Assembly (NCBI GenBank): GCA_947444195.1
Contig: CANEZL010000023.1
Location: 1 to 64,000, forward strand
DNA length: 64,000 nt
Origin: Methylobacteriaceae bacterium
GTDB lineage: Bacteria; Pseudomonadota; Alphaproteobacteria; Rhizobiales; Beijerinckiaceae
Direction: 5' to 3'
Position numbers and translations under genes: made by a program
In this document: positions 7,289 to 19,451 of the stretch, piece after piece
How the letters are laid out: every line of letters begins with the position of its first letter
Numbering within the stretch: position 1 is the first letter of the stretch
The notes under the pieces: generated by a model
What the model saw: the letters and a program-made list of their open reading frames with translations, nothing else
Database searches by the model: none
What the model was told of the DNA's origin: nothing

Positions 7289-10200
7289 TCAGGCCGGCGG
7301 GGCGGGGCGGAACAGGCCGGCGAGGTCGGGGTGGGTGCCCGCCGCCATCCAGGCGCCGCCCTGCGGATGGATCCGCGTCTGCGGATCGATCGCGCCGGCG
7401 CGGGCCATGGCGGCGAGTTCCGCGAGGGGAAAGGGGCCCTCCACCGCGTCGCGGAACAGGAAGAACAGGTCCTGCGGCGGGGGCGGCGCGGCCGGGGCCT
7501 CGGGGGCCGTGGCGAGGCGCAGGAGCGCGGCGGTCTCGAAGCGCTCCGGGTCGACCGCCCGCTTGTCGAGGGCGCGCAGGGGGGCCGGGTCGGCGGGATC
7601 GCGGTTCGCCTCCCAGGGGTCCACGTCGCCGAGGCTGTCGGGGATCGGCAGCGTGAACCGCTCGATGCCGGCGAGGAGGCGCGCGTGGAGGGCGTCCGGG
7701 TCGCCGGGCAGGCCGCCGGCCTCCCGCGCCGCCCGGAGCCAGCCCTCGGCGAGCGCGGCGGCGACCCCGTGGGCGATCCCGCCGAGGCGGGCCTCGGCGT
7801 CGTAGTTCACGGTCTCGCGGCGGGGCGCGTAGGCGCGCCGGGCGGTCCAGGCGAAGAGGGCGGCGAGGGCCAGCCCCTGGATCGGCGAGAGGGCGGCCTC
7901 GGCGCGGGCCACCGCCGCCTCCAGGGCCGCGCGCTGGGACGGCTCGAACAGGCGGCGGCGGATCGTGCGCTCGGCGCCGATGCTGCGCCGGTCCCCCGGC
8001 TCGAAGGCGAAGCGGTAGACGCCGCTCGCGGGGTCGCGCTGGAACAGGCCGAGGCAGACGCCGCGCAGGAACAGGGCGAGCGCCGCGCGCAGGGCGTCCG
8101 TCTCCGCCGCGCTCGGCGCCACGGGATCGGGGAAGCGCAGATAGTCCTTGTGGTTGTGCAGCGGGATCGCGTCGATGCGCTCCAGTTCCTGCGCGTAGGC
8201 GCCGCGCCAGTCGCGGCGCAGGGGCCCCAGCGCGTCGAGGGGCAGGCCGGAGACCTCGCAGTAGCAGACGATGCGCCCCGGCAATCCCGATTCCACGAAG
8301 CCGATCTCGCCCGCGCCCAGGACCGGCGGCAGGGCCGCGCGCAGGGCCGCGCCGAACTCGGCCTGGAAGGCGCGCGCGCCCTGCACGGCGACGAGGGTCT
8401 TGAACTGGTCGGAGCGCGGCTGGAAGGCGTCGAAGCGGGCGTAGATCCAGGGCAGGCTGCGCAGGAGCATGGTCTCGAGGAGGGTGCGCTGCTCCTGGGG
8501 CGGGATCTCGCGCAGGGCATCGAGCACCGCGGGGATGCGCGCCCGTGCCGGCTGGAGCTGGCGCTTGGCCATGGCGCGCACCGCGTCGAGCAGGTCCGCC
8601 CGGCTCTCCTCCGCCCGCAGCAGCCGGAAGATGGCCTGCGAGCCGCCATAGGCCCGGAAGGCCTCCCGCGCCCAGGCGAGGCGCTCGCCCGCCTCCACCC
8701 GGATCTCCGGCAGGTCGCCGGAGGGCAGGACGAGGAAGGTGCCCCCGGAGGGCCGCGCGATGGCGCCCCGGATCTCGGCGATGTCGCCGCGCAGCTCCGC
8801 GCAGAGGCGGTCCACGTCGGCATGGCCCTGGCGCAGCTCGCCGAGGAGCCCGTCGTAGCGGGCCTCGCCGGTCTCCCCGTCGCGCCCGATGCGCCGGCCG
8901 AGCCGGGCGGCGCATCGGGCGAGCAGTTCCGCCGCCTCCCGGGCCGCGACGGCGCGCAGGCGCAGCACCGCGAAGCCGCGCAGGTCCGCCCGCGCCTGGT
9001 CGAGGTAGCGCTCGCCGTCGCGGCGGCGCGAGAAGACGAGGCCGGGCCGGACCTGATCGAGCCGGGCGAGGCTGTCCGAGAAGTGGACGGAGAGCATCTC
9101 GTCGGCGAGCCGCGCGTAGGTGTCGGCGGCCGCGTTGAGCCGCGCCAGCGCGCCGCCGTCGGCCTCGATCACCGCCTTCATCCCCTCGATGAGCAGGATG
9201 GTGTAGTCGAGCCCGCCCCGCTCCTGATCGTCCAGGCGCTGGTAGAGGGCCTCGCGGAGGGAGCCCGGCCCGTCCGCGAGGAGCCGGTTCTCCAGGCGGG
9301 CGCGCGCCTCCTGCACCTCGGCGCCGCGCGGCCCGTAGGTGGTGTCCGAGCCCGTGCGGCCGAGGATGTCGTCGCGGATGCCGTCGGCGAGCTTGCGCAG
9401 GTTCGGCGCCCAGTCGCGCAGGGCGGCGACCTCGAGGCGGATCGCGTCCACCGCCTCCTCGACGGCGAGCGCCGTCGATTCCTGGATCGAGCCGCCGTCG
9501 GCGCGCTGGAGGAGCGCGCCGACGAGGTCGTACTCGGGGATCGCGGCGGGCGCCGGTTCCAGGACGGGCGGGAAGGCCTCGTAGGCGGAGAAGCGCAGGC
9601 TCAGCCGGTCGGCGAGGAAGCGGTCGCGCTCCTCCACGGCGGGGACGTGGCGCTCGCCCTGGCCGCGGGCGAGGCCGAAGAAGGCCTCGACCATGCCGAG
9701 GCCGGTGCGCAGCGTGGTCTCCTCGAAGGCGAGGCTGCCGCGGGTGGCCACCACCGCCTGGCCGAGGCTCGAATAGTTGAGGGAGAACAGGGCGGCGCGG
9801 GCCCCCTCCCCCGGGGGCGCCCATTTGCGCATCTTGTGCTGGGTCTGGTTCACCCCCACCGAGCGCTTGCGCGCGGAGAATTCCGAATTGCCGAAATCCT
9901 CGAACAGCACGTCGGCGATCATGTCGTAGAGGTCGCCCACCGCCGCCGTGCGCTGGTCGGCGAGGTTGTGGGTGTCGAACAGGTAGACCTCGGAATAGGG
10001 CCGCTCCACGGTGCGGGCGGGCGCCGCGTGGTCGCTCCAGCGCGTCACGTAGGGGGGCTCCGGATTGCCCCGCATGACGTATTCGAGCTCGGAGAGGGTG
10101 GCGAAGCCGTTGGCGAAGACGCGGTCGCGGTTGGCCCCGGCATAGCCCGAGGGCAGGACGAGGAAGAGTTCCACCGCATCCGGCCGCTTCGGCGTCTCGA

Positions 10201-10825
10201 TGGAGGAGAGGGCGTAGCCCGCATCGATCAGCGCGCCCGAGCCCGTACCGCCGGCCGCCGAGGCGACGACGACCACGCGCAGGTCCGCCCCCGTGTCGAG
10301 GCCGAGGGCGCGCAGGCGCGCCTCGTTCGAGACGTTGGCGAGCACGGTGGAGGCCTTGGCCACGGCCCGGCCGGTGAAGTTGGCCTGCGCGTCGAAGAAC
10401 AGGAGCCGGGCGATGCTGCGGATCTGGCCCGCGCCCTTCGCGGAATCGATGCGCGAGAGGTCGCGGGCGGGGAGCCAGGCGTCGATATGCGGGTAGTTGC
10501 GGCGCTCCGCCTGGTAGCGGGCGAGGTCCACCGCCTTCTGCAGGGTCTCTCCCTCGCTGAAGGCGACCTTGGCGGCGAGCGGATCGGTGCGGGTCGCCCG
10601 GTCGCTCTCGCGGGCCTCCAGGGTGTCGGTGTCGAAGTAGAGGAAGCCGGCCGCCGGGAACTGGTCGATGGCCGGGAGCCGCGTGCCGTTCCAGTCCGCC
10701 TGGAGGATGCGGCGGCGCAGGCGCAGGAGCACCTCCATGCCCGTGCCCCCGAGGGCCACGAACACGGTGGGCCGGACCTTCAGGAGCGCGTCGCCGCCGG
10801 CCTGTCCCCGAGAATCGTTCGCCAT
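7289..10825 (-). CDS. Large tubulin/FtsZ-like GTPase domain protein with C-terminal GYF_2-like domain
   Basis: N-terminal VFVALGGTGMEVLLRLRRR, tubulin signature-like VVVASAAGGTGSGALIDAGYAL; C-terminal DLFFLFRDAVEGPFPLAELAAMARAGAIDPQTRIHPQGGAWMAA. Confidence 0.75.
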   Translation of the reverse strand: MANDSRGQAGGDALLKVRPTVFVALGGTGMEVLLRLRRRILQADWNGTRLPAIDQFPAAGFLYFDTDTLEARESDRATRTDPLAAKVAFSEGETLQKAVDLARYQAERRNYPHIDAWLPARDLSRIDSAKGAGQIRSIARLLFFDAQANFTGRAVAKASTVLANVSNEARLRALGLDTGADLRVVVVASAAGGTGSGALIDAGYALSSIETPKRPDAVELFLVLPSGYAGANRDRVFANGFATLSELEYVMRGNPEPPYVTRWSDHAAPARTVERPYSEVYLFDTHNLADQRTAAVGDLYDMIADVLFEDFGNSEFSARKRSVGVNQTQHKMRKWAPPGEGARAALFSLNYSSLGQAVVATRGSLAFEETTLRTGLGMVEAFFGLARGQGERHVPAVEERDRFLADRLSLRFSAYEAFPPVLEPAPAAIPEYDLVGALLQRADGGSIQESTALAVEEAVDAIRLEVAALRDWAPNLRKLADGIRDDILGRTGSDTTYGPRGAEVQEARARLENRLLADGPGSLREALYQRLDDQERGGLDYTILLIEGMKAVIEADGGALARLNAAADTYARLADEMLSVHFSDSLARLDQVRPGLVFSRRRDGERYLDQARADLRGFAVLRLRAVAAREAAELLARCAARLGRRIGRDGETGEARYDGLLGELRQGHADVDRLCAELRGDIAEIRGAIARPSGGTFLVLPSGDLPEIRVEAGERLAWAREAFRAYGGSQAIFRLLRAEESRADLLDAVRAMAKRQLQPARARIPAVLDALREIPPQEQRTLLETMLLRSLPWIYARFDAFQPRSDQFKTLVAVQGARAFQAEFGAALRAALPPVLGAGEIGFVESGLPGRIVCYCEVSGLPLDALGPLRRDWRGAYAQELERIDAIPLHNHKDYLRFPDPVAPSAAETDALRAALALFLRGVCLGLFQRDPASGVYRFAFEPGDRRSIGAERTIRRRLFEPSQRAALEAAVARAEAALSPIQGLALAALFAWTARRAYAPRRETVNYDAEARLGGIAHGVAAALAEGWLRAAREAGGLPGDPDALHARLLAGIERFTLPIPDSLGDVDPWEANRDPADPAPLRALDKRAVDPERFETAALLRLATAPEAPAAPPPPQDLFFLFRDAVEGPFPLAELAAMARAGAIDPQTRIHPQGGAWMAAGTHPDLAGLFRPAPPA

Positions 10826-10838
10826 GGGAAGGGCTCCT

Positions 10839-11327
10839 TCAGCGCCGGCGCTGCGGCGCGCGCACGAACAGCACCGCCGCCACCGTGAACAGGACGGCGC
10901 AGACGCCGAGGCCGGCCGCGAGGCCGAGCCAGTGCCGCCAGAGATCGCCGAGCGCCGCGGTGACGAGGACGACGGCCGTGAGCATCAGCGCCGAGAACAG
11001 CATCCAGGCGGCGCCGTTGGCCGCGTCGAGGGCGGCCCGGCGGCCGACGAGGTGGGCGCGCACGCTGCCGCGCACGTAGAGGAACACCACCGCGAGCACG
11101 AGGAGCAGGCCGAGGCCGAGCACGGTCTCCGCGGTGCTCGGCCCCCGCGACAGGCTGGAGAAGGGCGAGGCGGGGGCCGCTGTGCCGGGCGCCCCCGAGG
11201 CTGGCGCCCCCGGGGCCGGCGCCTCCGTGCGCGGCGGCGCGGCGGGGGGCGGGATCGTGAAATCCGTCGTCGGCGCGGGCCGGGACGCCGGGGGCTGGGT
11301 GCTCTGGGCCTGGGCGGAACCGATCAT
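10839..11327 (-). CDS. Small membrane protein of the tubulin-like operon
   Basis: Pro/Ala-rich N-terminus, hydrophobic segments VLGLGLLLVLAVVFLYV, AAWMLFSALMLTAVVLVTAAL, LAAGLGVCAVLFTVAAVLFV. Confidence 0.7.
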   Translation of the reverse strand: MIGSAQAQSTQPPASRPAPTTDFTIPPPAAPPRTEAPAPGAPASGAPGTAAPASPFSSLSRGPSTAETVLGLGLLLVLAVVFLYVRGSVRAHLVGRRAALDAANGAAWMLFSALMLTAVVLVTAALGDLWRHWLGLAAGLGVCAVLFTVAAVLFVRAPQRRR

Positions 11328-12856
11328 CGGCGCTCCTGATGCTGCGGCGCGGCCGAGGCGCCGGAACCGGGCGAGGGCTGGGGCACGGGATCGACGCGCG
11401 GCGCGCCGAACAGCCCGGCCCGGACGCGCCAGCGGCTCCCGTCCGGGGCGCGCAGGGTCTGGGCCCGGAAGGGCCGCAGGGTGACGCGGCGGGGATGGCC
11501 GCCGAGGCTGACCGTGCACAGACGCGGCCGGCCCGCATAGAGGAGCGCGCCCGCCGCCGCGGCCGCGAGCCCCAGGAGGCCGAGGCCGGCGGCGAGGAGG
11601 GGCCAGGGCGAGGCGCGCACGACGATGCGGACCGGCAGGGCCGAGGCGGTCTGCGTGACCGCGCGGAAATCGAGGAAGATGTCGGGCATCCGCTGCTCGA
11701 CGCCCGCCTGCCCCTCGGCGAGGAGGCCGCTCCCGAAGATCGGCCGCACCCGTTCGAGGAAGGCGGGATCGAGGTCGAGCACGAGGTCGCGCAGGGTGAT
11801 CGAGAGGGTGCCGTCCACCACCCGGTCGTCGGCGAGCAGGGCGGCGAGCCCGCCCGGGCGCGGCAGCGGCGGGATGGCGAGGTCGACGGTGAGCGGCGCG
11901 CCCTCGGAGCCGGCCCCGAGATTCGCGACCCGCGCCGGGGCCACGGCGGCGCGGGCGAGCGCCGCCTCGCCCGCGCCGATCTCGCGCCAGTCGATAGAGA
12001 CGGTGCCGGAGACGACGCGCTGCGGGTAGAAACCGCTGCGCAGGCGGGCGCGCAGGCGCAGATGCGCGCCCTCCGCCGCGCGGGCGCCGGCGACCACGAG
12101 GACGCCGTTCTGCATCGCGGCATCGAGGCCCCCCGCCTCCACGGCCTCCACCGCGAGGCTGACGCCGCCGGCGAGGGCGGGCTTCAGCATCACCGGGGGG
12201 AAGCTGAACAGGGCGCGCATCGGCGCCGAGGCGAGGATCGCGTTGAGCGCCCGGCCGCCCTCCGCCCCGTAGCCGATGCCGTAGACGACGAAGCCGCCCT
12301 CGCGGAAGTTGCGGCCCTGCAGGGGCATCCGCACCGGATAGGCGGCGATCCGCGCGATCGGCTCGGCCCCGCGCAGGCTCTCGTAGAAGGCGCGGGTGTT
12401 GGCCTGGACCTCCGGGCTGTTGCCGGGGGCGTTCTTGTTGTTCGTCACCATCCAGATCACGCCCTCCCGCCCCCGCAGGACGGTGCGGACGGTGCCGAGC
12501 AGCGCGCCGTTGAAATCGGCATCCGTGTAGGCGCGCCCGCCCGCCTTGAGGGGCAGGTCGATCCGGTCGATGGCCGCGCCCACGGCCCGCGCGTCGTAGG
12601 CGCCCTCGTAGAGCACCTGCGGCGCGGCGCGGCCGGGCACCTGGCCCTCCTGGTTGAAGGCCGCCACCGAGACCGGGCCGTCCCCGTACCGGGCGGCCGC
12701 GGCGAGCGCCTTCAGGAGGGGGCGGAACTGCGCGTCGGGGGCCGTGAGGAAGGGCTCCATCCAGCCGGAATTCTGCACGAGGAGGACCTGGCGCAGCTCC
12801 GCCCGCGCGGGCCCGGCGCAGGCGAGAAGGAGGCAGAGGACGAGGAGGCGCCTCAC
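11324..12856 (-). CDS. vWA-like exported protein with C-terminal TM segment
   Basis: GTG start, signal peptide VRRLLVLCLLLACAGPARA, then LRQVLLVQNSGWMEPF in place of DxSxS; TM LLAAGLGLLGLAAAAAGALLYAG; 4-bp overlaps at both ends. Confidence 0.7.
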   Translation of the reverse strand: MRRLLVLCLLLACAGPARAELRQVLLVQNSGWMEPFLTAPDAQFRPLLKALAAAARYGDGPVSVAAFNQEGQVPGRAAPQVLYEGAYDARAVGAAIDRIDLPLKAGGRAYTDADFNGALLGTVRTVLRGREGVIWMVTNNKNAPGNSPEVQANTRAFYESLRGAEPIARIAAYPVRMPLQGRNFREGGFVVYGIGYGAEGGRALNAILASAPMRALFSFPPVMLKPALAGGVSLAVEAVEAGGLDAAMQNGVLVVAGARAAEGAHLRLRARLRSGFYPQRVVSGTVSIDWREIGAGEAALARAAVAPARVANLGAGSEGAPLTVDLAIPPLPRPGGLAALLADDRVVDGTLSITLRDLVLDLDPAFLERVRPIFGSGLLAEGQAGVEQRMPDIFLDFRAVTQTASALPVRIVVRASPWPLLAAGLGLLGLAAAAAGALLYAGRPRLCTVSLGGHPRRVTLRPFRAQTLRAPDGSRWRVRAGLFGAPRVDPVPQPSPGSGASAAPQHQERR

Positions 12857-14202
12857 CGGAAGCGCACCGCGAAGCTGCGCCCCCGCCGCTCGCGCCGGCT
12901 GTAGAGGTGGAGCCGGCCGCCGCCGAGGCAGGCGCGGGCATCGGCGAGGGATCCCACCTCCAGGCTCGCGGGCAGCCGCGTCAGCCCGGCGCCGTGGGCG
13001 TGGTGGAGCACGTAGCCGGTGAGCGGGCGCGGGAAGGGCAGGCCGCGGATCGCCTCGGCGGTGGGGCTCTCGAGCCGGAGCGCCAGGAGCAGGGTGTCGC
13101 GCGGCAGGGCCAGGAGCGGCACGAGCAGGCTGCCCGCGTAGGCGCCGAGCGTCAGCGCCTCCGCCGGGGCGTCCCAGGGCGGATCGAAGCGCTCGCCCGC
13201 GGCGTAGCTCACGCCGCCCGCCGCGCAATGGGGCCCGTCAAGGCCGTGCAGGAGGTCGCCCGGGGCCAGGGCGGCGTAGTGGTAGCGCCCCGCCCGCAAT
13301 CCGAGCTGGTGCAGGATGCCCGAGCGGTCGCGGTAGGGCGACTGGGCGAGGATCGGAGCGAAGCCCGCGGGCCAGGGCAGGAAGCGCGGGGGCGCCCCGT
13401 CCGCGGTCCGGATCAGGAAACCCGCCTCCGCCGGCCAGAACGCGTCGCCGAGGCGGTTCAGGACGGGGGCGGCGACGAGGCCGGGAAGAGCGGGCAGCGG
13501 CGCGAGCGCGAGGGGGCCCACCCCTTCGCCCGCCCGCACGGGCGCCTCCGCCAGCACCGGCTCGCCCGCGGCGAGCCCCGGCGCCGCGAGGCGGTCGCCG
13601 ATCCGGGCCGGGCCGGCCAGGAAGCGGAGATCCGGCCGGCCGAGGGCGGCATGGCCGAGCCCGGCACCGAGCTGGGGCAGGGCCACCGTCACCAGGGCGT
13701 CCCGCGTGGCGTAGGCGAAGCCCTCCGGCCCCGCCGCAAGGGCGTGGGCGCCGGGCGGCAGGTCCGCCGGCGGCAGGCGGCCGAGGGGAATCCAGCCCTC
13801 CGGGGCGCGCCATTCGAGGAGGCCGAGATTCTCCTGGAAGACGCAGAGCATCGCGGGCCGGCCGGCCCGGAACAGGGCCGGGACGCCGGCCGGAAGCGGC
13901 AGGTCGGCGGCCGAATCCGCCTCCACCGCGAGGATGTCGCCCGCGGGCTCGGGGGCGTCGGGCGCCAGGGCCGCGCCGGTGAGCGGATCGTGCCTGAAGC
14001 GGGCCGGATAGGGGCCGCCCGCGCCCCGGCGCAGGCCGAGGAAGGCGAGGCGCGGATCGTCGGCGGACAGGGTGAGGCCCGCCACCTCCACCGCGGCGAG
14101 GCGCCCCTCCGCGAAGCGCCAGTGCTGGCGGGCAGCGAGATTGGTCACGGCAGGATCCGGATCGATCGGCCAGATTCCGTTCAGGGCCTCGGGCAAGCTC
14201 AT
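12853..14202 (-). CDS. Uncharacterised 449-aa protein, first gene of the tubulin-like operon
   Basis: MSLPEALNGIWPIDPDPAVTNLAARQHWRFAEGRLAAVEV...; 4-bp overlap with the vWA-like gene. Confidence 0.7.
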   Translation of the reverse strand: MSLPEALNGIWPIDPDPAVTNLAARQHWRFAEGRLAAVEVAGLTLSADDPRLAFLGLRRGAGGPYPARFRHDPLTGAALAPDAPEPAGDILAVEADSAADLPLPAGVPALFRAGRPAMLCVFQENLGLLEWRAPEGWIPLGRLPPADLPPGAHALAAGPEGFAYATRDALVTVALPQLGAGLGHAALGRPDLRFLAGPARIGDRLAAPGLAAGEPVLAEAPVRAGEGVGPLALAPLPALPGLVAAPVLNRLGDAFWPAEAGFLIRTADGAPPRFLPWPAGFAPILAQSPYRDRSGILHQLGLRAGRYHYAALAPGDLLHGLDGPHCAAGGVSYAAGERFDPPWDAPAEALTLGAYAGSLLVPLLALPRDTLLLALRLESPTAEAIRGLPFPRPLTGYVLHHAHGAGLTRLPASLEVGSLADARACLGGGRLHLYSRRERRGRSFAVRFR

Positions 14203-17450: not shown

Positions 17451-17596
17451 CCGGATTCTCCCGTGAGGCCGCGCGGTGCGGACAGGCGCCGCCGACGGCC
17501 GCGGCGATGCTCGACGTCAACGACGAAGATAGGGGCGCGGGCCCGTGTTCGCGGAAGCGACCCCGGAAGGACGGGTCGTTGGCGACCGGCGGTCCT

Positions 17597-19268
17597 GTTT
17601 CTGGAGCCGCGCTCCCGTGAGGGAGCGACCGCAACGGCGACGCCCTCGCCTGGACGTCCGAGACATTTCAATCCGCGCTCCCGTGAGGGAGCGACCGTTG
17701 CCGATCGTGCGGGCGCGCACCGGCACCTTGTTTCAATCCGCGCTCCCTTGAGGGAGCGACCCGGTGGCGAGTAGTAGTCGCCCGAGCCGGATCCCGTTTC
17801 AATCCGCGCTCCCGTGAGGGAGCGACCGGAGCGTCCCCGGGCTTTCGGCCCAGAGTGCGGGGTTTCAATCCGCGCTCCCGTGAGGGAGCGACCCGGTAGC
17901 GGTGTGGCCGGCGCGGCTGGCCGAGTTTCAATCCGCGCTCCCGTGAGGGAGCGACCTGAGACGGCGCGGCCACGTCCCACGGCACGTCGGTTTCAATCCG
18001 CGCTCCCGTGAGGGAGCGACCATTCCTGGGGTCTCCCGCGTCAAGGTATACGAGTTTCAATCCGCGCTCCCGTGAGGGAGCGACGAGGCTCATCGCGTGG
18101 CTCAGCAGCGTGTTCGCGTTTCAATCCGCGCTCCCGTGAGGGAGCGACGACCGCGGCGCGCGCGGCGGCATCCGACCTCGCGTTTCAATCCGCGCTCCCG
18201 TGAGGGAGCGACTTCCGGCGCACGGTGAGCTTCCTCGGCACCGCCGAGTTTCAATCCGCGCTCCTGTGAGGGAGCGACGTGGCTCTCGCGAGGCTGAGCG
18301 ATGCCCTACGCCCAGTTTCAATCCGCGCTCCCGTGAGGGAGCGACCCGGGACCTTCAGGTCGACCTCGACCGTGACCAGGTTTCAATCCGCGCTCCCGTG
18401 AGGGAGCGACCCGTGTCGGGTACGATACCCTTGCGGAGCTGACGGCGTTTCAATCCGCGCTCCCGTGAGGGAGCGATGAGCAAACCGGCGCATCGGGGCA
18501 CCTTGACGTGGCGTTTCAATCCGCGCTCCCGTGAGGGAGCGACCCCTCGGCCGCCGCGTCCAGAAACACCGTGCGGTCGTTTCAATCCGCGCTCCCGTGA
18601 GGGAGCGACCCCCCGCATGATGTCGCGCAGGCGCTCGTAGTAGTAGTTTCAATCCGCGCTCCCGTGAGGGAGCGACGACCTACGTGCCGCTGGATTTCGA
18701 GGGCTACACCGTTTCAATCCGCGCTCCCGTGAGGGAGCGACTTTCGGTGCAGGTGCAGCGTCCTTATCCTCCAGGAAGTTTCAATCCGCGCTCCCGTGAG
18801 GGAGCGACGCCTGATCTTCAGGCTTGCGGCGGCGGCGCCCATGTTTCAATCCGCGCTCCCGTGAGGGAGCGACTCCTGACCGAGGACGAGCGCCGATTCC
18901 TCGAGCTCGTTTCAATCCGCGCTCCCGTGAGGGAGCGACCCTGGCGTCACCGGCTCCCCAGGGCAGCAAGGTCTGTTTCAATCCGCGCTCCCGTGAGGGA
19001 GCGACGCGCCCCTGGATCGGGGATTGGTGGCGCACGGGTGTTTCAATCCGCGCTCCCGTGAGGGAGCGACGATCGAGGCGAGGTCGGCCGAGCCGGCGAC
19101 GATCGCGTTTCAATCCGCGCTCCCGTGAGGGAGCGACGACGACCGTTCGATCGACATACACGGTGATGTCGTTTCAATCCGCGCTCCCGTGAGGGAGCGA
19201 CCACGAGGCCGTGGTAGTTCTCGCCGCGCTCGGCCAAGTTTCAATCCGCGCTCCCGTGAGGGAGCGAC
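17597..19268 (-). CRISPR. CRISPR array, 26 repeats (leftmost degenerate), 25 spacers of ~32-37 nt; type I-C-like repeat
   Basis: 31-nt repeat gtttcaatccgcgctcccgtgagggagcgac (complement GTCGCTCCCTCACGGGAGCGCGGATTGAAAC). Starts include 17665, 17730, 17796, 17862, 17925, 17990, 18054 ... 19171, 19238. ATTGAAAC 3' end implies minus-strand transcription. Confidence 0.98.
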
Positions 19269-19451
19269 GGCGCCATCCTAACCGTCCGGCACGGCAGGGG
19301 AAACCGGCGCGTCCGCGCGAACCGGGGCCGGCGGCGGTCTCGCGCGGGGTGCGCGCGACGATGGAACGGCTCCGAATCGTGCCGTCGCAAGGGCTTGGCG
19401 CGGGCGCGAACCGTCGAGGGCGAGCCCGGGCGCTTCCGGTTCGCGCGGGGC

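Follow-up and report, generated by a model that had tools for sequence, protein, structure and literature searches.

A Four-Gene Operon of Methylobacterium Encoding an FtsZl1-Class Tubulin-Like Protein and a Putative vWA-Like Membrane Partner

Introduction

Why would a bacterium that possesses an ordinary FtsZ also keep a second, very long tubulin-like protein, encoded next to an apparently exported partner and a small membrane protein? This question is raised by four same-strand genes located at positions 7289-14202 of the DNA analyzed here, a 64,000-nucleotide stretch from a Methylobacteriaceae bacterium that we refer to as the window. Systems combining FtsZl1 with vWA proteins were proposed to be membrane-remodelling machines by Makarova and Koonin (2010; PMC2875224). 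A reviewer of that paper suggested transport or signalling in place of remodelling, and a reviewer objection asked in what way exported partners could cooperate with an FtsZ-like protein that resides in the cytosol (PMC2875224). Such systems have been predicted since 2010, and no experimental study of an FtsZl1 system was found in the literature searched; likewise, searches on bacterial GYF domains, caspase-linked tubulins and Methylobacterium tubulins yielded no study of the system described here.

Results

The Four Genes Form a Compact Operon

All four genes are located on the minus strand. The first of them, P0004 (449 aa; 12853-14202), overlaps by 4 bp (12853-12856) with the gene for P0003 (510 aa, GTG start; 11324-12856), a vWA-like protein predicted to be a type I membrane protein; this gene in turn overlaps by 4 bp (11324-11327) with that for P0002 (162 aa; 10839-11327), a predicted membrane protein with three helices and an N-tail rich in proline. 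An intergenic gap of 13 bp (10826-10838) then leads to the gene for P0001 (1178 aa; 7289-10825), the FtsZl1/Tubulin_2 protein. The common strand and both overlaps agree with a preliminary description of this DNA, which had put the gap in front of the tubulin-like gene at 11 bp. Scans for promoters and terminators gave nothing informative.

From a genome collection, we took 13 Methylobacterium loci (12 complete, one with a contig end). The gene order was retained in each of the 12 loci showing all four genes, the 13th locus ending at the contig edge, and junctions of 4 bp or near zero were seen again in the loci of the relatives.

Elsewhere in the window, a CRISPR array is present at 17588-19289 (about 25 repeats, GTTTCAATCCGCGCTCCCGTGAGGGAGCGAC, with a period of 63-67). 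The segment 22000-28000 has a GC content of about 65-67%, as compared with 70-77% in most of the window, and contains short, odd reading frames; these two features suggest a mobile island.

P0001 Is a Tubulin-Like Protein With a GYF_2 Domain at Its C Terminus

Residues 22-357 of P0001 (9755-10762, minus strand) match the Pfam family Tubulin_2 (PF13809) with E=5.3e-46 and 157.9 bits, above the curated cut-off of 27. Together with the preserved gene order and the recurrent near-zero junctions, this match argues against a chance assembly of the operon. The domain contains a T4-type GTP-binding loop, AGGTGSG (residues 191-197; 10235-10255, minus strand), the form that the GG(A/G)TG(S/T)G loop of the FtsZl1 type takes in P0001. 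In an alignment of 11 homologues, A191, G192, T194, G195, and G197 are invariant, and G193 and S196 are nearly so. The two motifs that the preliminary description had quoted from the 1178-aa protein, VFVALGGTGMEVLLRLRR and VVVASAAGGTGSGALIDAGYAL, are present, and its placement of the protein in a tubulin/FtsZ-like family distinct from the cell-division FtsZ is borne out, since Pfam assigns P0001 to Tubulin_2 with no match to PF00091 and the genome carries a separate, ordinary FtsZ (G000:C1:182278).

Comparison of the P0001 profile with 30 FtsZ sequences gave a score of 27.2 (shuffles up to 19.3; reversed control, 25.2), and the alignment covers the T4 region only. Because this direct comparison hardly beats its reversed control, the superfamily membership of P0001 rests on Pfam and on the HHpred work of 2010. 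The same comparison with the 30 FtsZ sequences allowed no confident placement of the tubulin T6-T7 elements, which were not confidently identified in FtsZl1 in 2010 either (PMC2875224); a candidate T7 loop, [NT]S[DE]F, follows the IADVLFEDF helix. The tubulin/FtsZ similarity of the first ~400 residues is present as judged by sequence profile, and on this footing we assign P0001, a very long chain bearing a tubulin-like domain of the GTP-binding type, to the FtsZl1 family (Makarova and Koonin, 2010).

The C terminus of P0001 (residues 1127-1168; 7322-7447, minus strand) matches the GYF_2 domain (PF14237) with E=4.7e-7. When a profile of 11 P0001 homologues (A6) was compared with the PDB, the GYF domain of AgmX (7z3c) was recovered with E=5.2e-8, and beyond this domain one chance-level match only was obtained; a single-sequence search of the PDB with P0001 gave no match. 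All nine propeller-type tubulins carry the GYF_2 signature; it is missing from the two other aligned Tubulin_2 proteins (L015 and L030), which come from loci without this operon. At the first of these, a Myxococcales locus (L015, 4129-10940), the Tubulin_2 gene is followed by a gene whose large product shows weak Hsp70-like (actin-fold) similarity, only just exceeding the Pfam cut-off.

P0003 Is a Putative vWA-Like Protein With a Replaced Metal Site

P0003 begins with a signal peptide, judged by eye (MRRLLVLCLLLACAGPARAE; about residues 1-20; 12797-12856, minus strand). It is followed by the vWA-like domain (residues 22-225; 12182-12793), delimited by the strand/helix order of an AF2 model and by profile comparison, a beta-rich domain, one transmembrane helix (residues 418-441; 11534-11605; AF2 helix and hydropathy), and a basic five-stranded tail (residues 445-491; 11384-11524) that is predicted from the AF2 model and the charge count to be cytosolic, all encoded on the minus strand. 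Thirteen K/R residues as opposed to three D/E residues lie beyond the helix.

The evidence for the vWA-like exported partner of the preliminary description is modest and comes from profile and model. A comparison by hhalign of the P0003 profile with 30 proteobacterial vWA domains scored 32.8 (E=2.5e-4 over 135 columns; controls no higher than 23.2 in 20 shuffles and 17.9 when reversed). The strand/helix order of the AF2 model fits vWA, and its fold retrieved one vWA structure from the PDB, 4fx5 (E=2.3e-4, with low whole-chain TM-scores). Pfam VWA found no match in eight P0003 homologues even at E=10, and the profile gave no match to PDB sequences.

The position of the MIDAS motif DxSxS is occupied by QNSGWM (residues 28-33; 12758-12775, minus strand), which hhalign aligns to DxSGSM and in which Q28, S30, G31, W32, and M33 are invariant (alignments A2 and A3). 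TNNKN (residues 138-142; 12431-12445, minus strand) stands at the vWA TDG position, with TNN aligned to TDG by hhalign and T138, N139, N140, and N142 invariant. All three tested MIDAS positions thus differ (D to Q, S to W, D to N), and the replacement (DxSxS by QxSGW, TDG by TNN) was seen in 16/16 P0003 homologues. From these substitutions, we infer that the domain has lost metal binding. DDSGSM is retained at L029, where a vWA-like gene lies in the vicinity of a different Tubulin_2 gene.

P0002 and P0004 Are a Three-Helix Membrane Protein and a Probable Beta-Propeller

Searches of Pfam, NCBIfam, PADLOC, and PHROGs with P0002, P0003, and P0004 returned nothing useful. P0002 has three transmembrane helices, and 11/12 homologues carry 11-15 prolines among the 60 residues of the N-tail. 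The charges of its loops favor an N-out/C-in topology according to the positive-inside rule. We considered this proline-rich tail, an attractive candidate, as ligand of the GYF_2 domain and did not adopt it, because it is predicted to be periplasmic and hence separated from that domain by the membrane. In an Azospirillum homologue, the tail is nearly lost (four prolines), and the locus also lacks a vWA gene.

P0004 had no Pfam match, and its profile found two weak, unrelated matches only among PDB sequences. The AF2 model, built from a 13-sequence alignment, is all-beta (mean pLDDT 73.7, pTM 0.75). Foldseek returned 193 PDB matches at E<=0.001, the top ones being mostly beta-propellers, with TM-scores of only about 0.3-0.5. 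P0004 thus models as a soluble beta-propeller without export signal. Two relatives (L073 and L075) carry CPRCG or CPECG near the N terminus, a zinc-ribbon-like feature for which Pfam matches are weak. At the corresponding CPxCG site, P0004 has the cysteine-free stretch FRHDPLTGAAL (residues 69-79; 13966-13998, minus strand; alignment A4); by this alignment, the CxxC motif is lost in the present lineage.

The Operon Is Patchily Distributed and Appears to Be Inherited With Losses

Matches to P0001 and P0004 were found in an identical set of 17/111 Methylobacterium genomes. Since the genes are linked, this co-occurrence reflects joint gain or loss rather than an independent association, and with a presence in only 17 of 111 species the function of the set is evidently dispensable. 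Outside the genus, the four-gene order was found in a member of another family of the same order (G325; P0001 with 44% identity), in a member of the same class (G804), and in one of another class (G757). Conservation of the neighborhood, which the preliminary description had proposed to check, stands with respect to gene order and co-occurrence in the loci showing all four genes, and does not extend to genus-wide presence. Of 399 genomes sampled from the phylum, seven exceeded the Tubulin_2 cut-off and three were matched by the P0003 profile, all within those seven; each of the three P0003-type genes adjoins Tubulin_2, and none occurred without it.

No match to the operon proteins was found in phage genomes. 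Two plasmids gave matches, of which only one, plasmid p2 of Azospirillum sp. TSA2s (L081), is close: genes for a tubulin with GYF domain, a three-helix protein, and a propeller (hhalign E=2e-14 to P0004) stand in a row that lacks the vWA gene. The plasmid is mobilizable, and three caspase-family genes as well as OmpA and DUF4384 genes surround its tubulin set.

In 10 of the 11 Methylobacterium loci with enough flank, the operon follows queE-dacF (L006 is the exception), a neighborhood that was not seen outside the genus. In the close relatives L084, L087, and L089, odc and a GNAT gene adjoin queE and the operon is absent from the site; in L084 one other reading frame intervenes. One of the 17 genomes (G412) holds P0001 in fragments with P0004 open. 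Its decayed copy (L077, 9164-11280) comprises tubulin fragments with a stop, a partial vWA gene, and an open propeller gene.

Pairwise identities within the operon correlate with the values for the flanking genes queE and dacF (rho is 0.85-0.88 in most pairs and 0.78 where the small gene is compared), and the reading frames have remained open at 50-79% identity, which indicates selection. A recent mobile origin was considered and rejected in view of the missing phage matches and of a divergence that follows the flanking genes. Because operon and queE/dacF divergence run in parallel, inheritance with losses fits these sequences better than recent transfer within the genus; alternatively, the whole queE region may have been transferred.

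Discussion

We propose, at about even chances, that the operon encodes a four-part proteobacterial system of the FtsZl1 class in which an inner-membrane complex relays a signal from the periplasm to a GTPase in the cytosol. The vWA-like domain of P0003 would reside in the periplasm and bind its ligand, a protein or a wall component, without metal. Together with P0002, the basic cytosolic tail of P0003 would tether P0001 to the cytosolic surface of the inner membrane, and these two membrane proteins would carry the signal across. The P0004 propeller might serve as scaffold or client adaptor, and the GYF_2 domain of P0001 could dock on a proline-rich partner. The state of the outside ligand of P0003 would then set the assembly of the P0001 GTPase inside, which might recruit or rearrange envelope components locally; membrane remodelling as the output, as in the 2010 prediction, is a further guess, and the cytoskeletal or membrane-remodelling machine of the preliminary description repeats that prediction. 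Such an arrangement would be relevant to the reviewer objection of 2010, since the exported P0003 crosses the membrane and its conserved tail is predicted to be cytosolic. The boldest form of the proposal, in which a metal-free periplasmic vWA domain controls the assembly of a cytosolic tubulin-superfamily GTPase and thereby provides an integrin-like outside-in link to a bacterial tubulin cytoskeleton, strikes us as quite improbable.

Other readings of the operon have to be weighed. It might be a stress-triggered self-destruction or conflict module used in defense, with the vWA-like protein sensing envelope damage and the GTPase assembly activating a nearby or distant effector. The Azospirillum plasmid, with its caspase-family and OmpA/DUF4384 genes, speaks for this, as do genes for caspase (C14)+DUF4384 and CHAT peptidases at the Tubulin_2 locus of genome G716, and patchy presence, clean absence at one site, and decay in G412 would suit it as well. 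However, neither the operon nor its vicinity contains an effector, the flanks being housekeeping genes; PADLOC models of anti-phage defense systems gave 0 matches to the four proteins, which are likewise missing from phage genomes; and the divergence of the operon follows the chromosome, unlike that of a fast-moving defense island. We regard this reading as unlikely. At locus L074 (1617-6395), from a genome of the same phylum, caspase (C14)+DUF4384 and CHAT genes share their strand with a Tubulin_2 gene, and no paper on such an association was found in the literature searched.

To a similar degree, we doubt that the set is a scaffold for localized secretion or for envelope (wall or polysaccharide) assembly, with the GTPase acting as a static organizer rather than as a membrane-bending polymer. 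AgmX, whose GYF domain that of P0001 resembles, is a gliding-motility protein and belongs to an inner-membrane machine; the exported P0003 would also suit a scaffold, and in most Methylobacterium loci the operon adjoins dacF, the gene for a D-Ala-D-Ala carboxypeptidase. Yet the dacF/queE adjacency exists without the operon too and is absent outside the genus, so that it is probably a matter of location only. Least probable, and a long shot in our view, is the strict 2010 proposal that polymers of FtsZl1 drive constriction or budding of the inner membrane: it can draw on superfamily precedent and on membrane-bound partners (PMC2875224), but the T6-T7 elements needed for filament hydrolysis lack a confident identification in 2010 and here, and no membrane structure is known to accompany the operon.

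A compact operon that is cleanly present or absent at one site in cultivable Methylobacterium offers a natural pair-wise test, and such pairs would show the role of a bacterial tubulin relative that does not serve division.

Comparison With Known Systems

FtsZ and tubulin polymers are GTP-driven filaments with a catalytic T7 loop. P0001 shares the glycine-rich T1- and T4-like loops with FtsZ/tubulin (PF00091) and has diverged too far for the profiles to match directly, its T7 loop being a candidate. P0003 resembles canonical bacterial vWA domains (PF00092/PF13519) in predicted strand/helix order and profile similarity and differs from them in that its MIDAS is not intact. The GYF domain of AgmX is part of a GTPase-controlled inner-membrane gliding assembly. 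Between P0001 and AgmX/GltJ from the gliding apparatus of Myxococcus (PDB 7z3c), similarity is limited to the GYF domain, and no further common part was seen; this is an analogy and not membership.

The closest relatives are the FtsZl1 operons of 2010 (PMC2875224), with which the present set shares the N-terminal FtsZ-like domain, a very long protein, vWA and membrane partners (the vWA-domain partner being represented, with moderate strength from profile and model, by P0003), and a separate ordinary FtsZ. Proteins of the FtsZl1 family are further characterized by an extended coiled coil with an alpha-helical C-terminal domain behind it. In contrast to the operons of 2010, the present set has a tubulin-like protein that ends in GYF_2 and is accompanied by a propeller and a three-helix protein, and it lacks the genes for a kinase, a P-loop GTPase, and OmpA; the propeller may already be included in the supplementary family list of that paper. 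DxSxS is intact in most vWA proteins linked to FtsZl1 (PMC2875224), whereas the metal site of P0003 is replaced. FtsZl1 systems as such are known; judged from sequences and models, the combination of a vWA-like protein with a replaced metal site, a GYF-tailed tubulin, and a probable propeller would be a new form of them.
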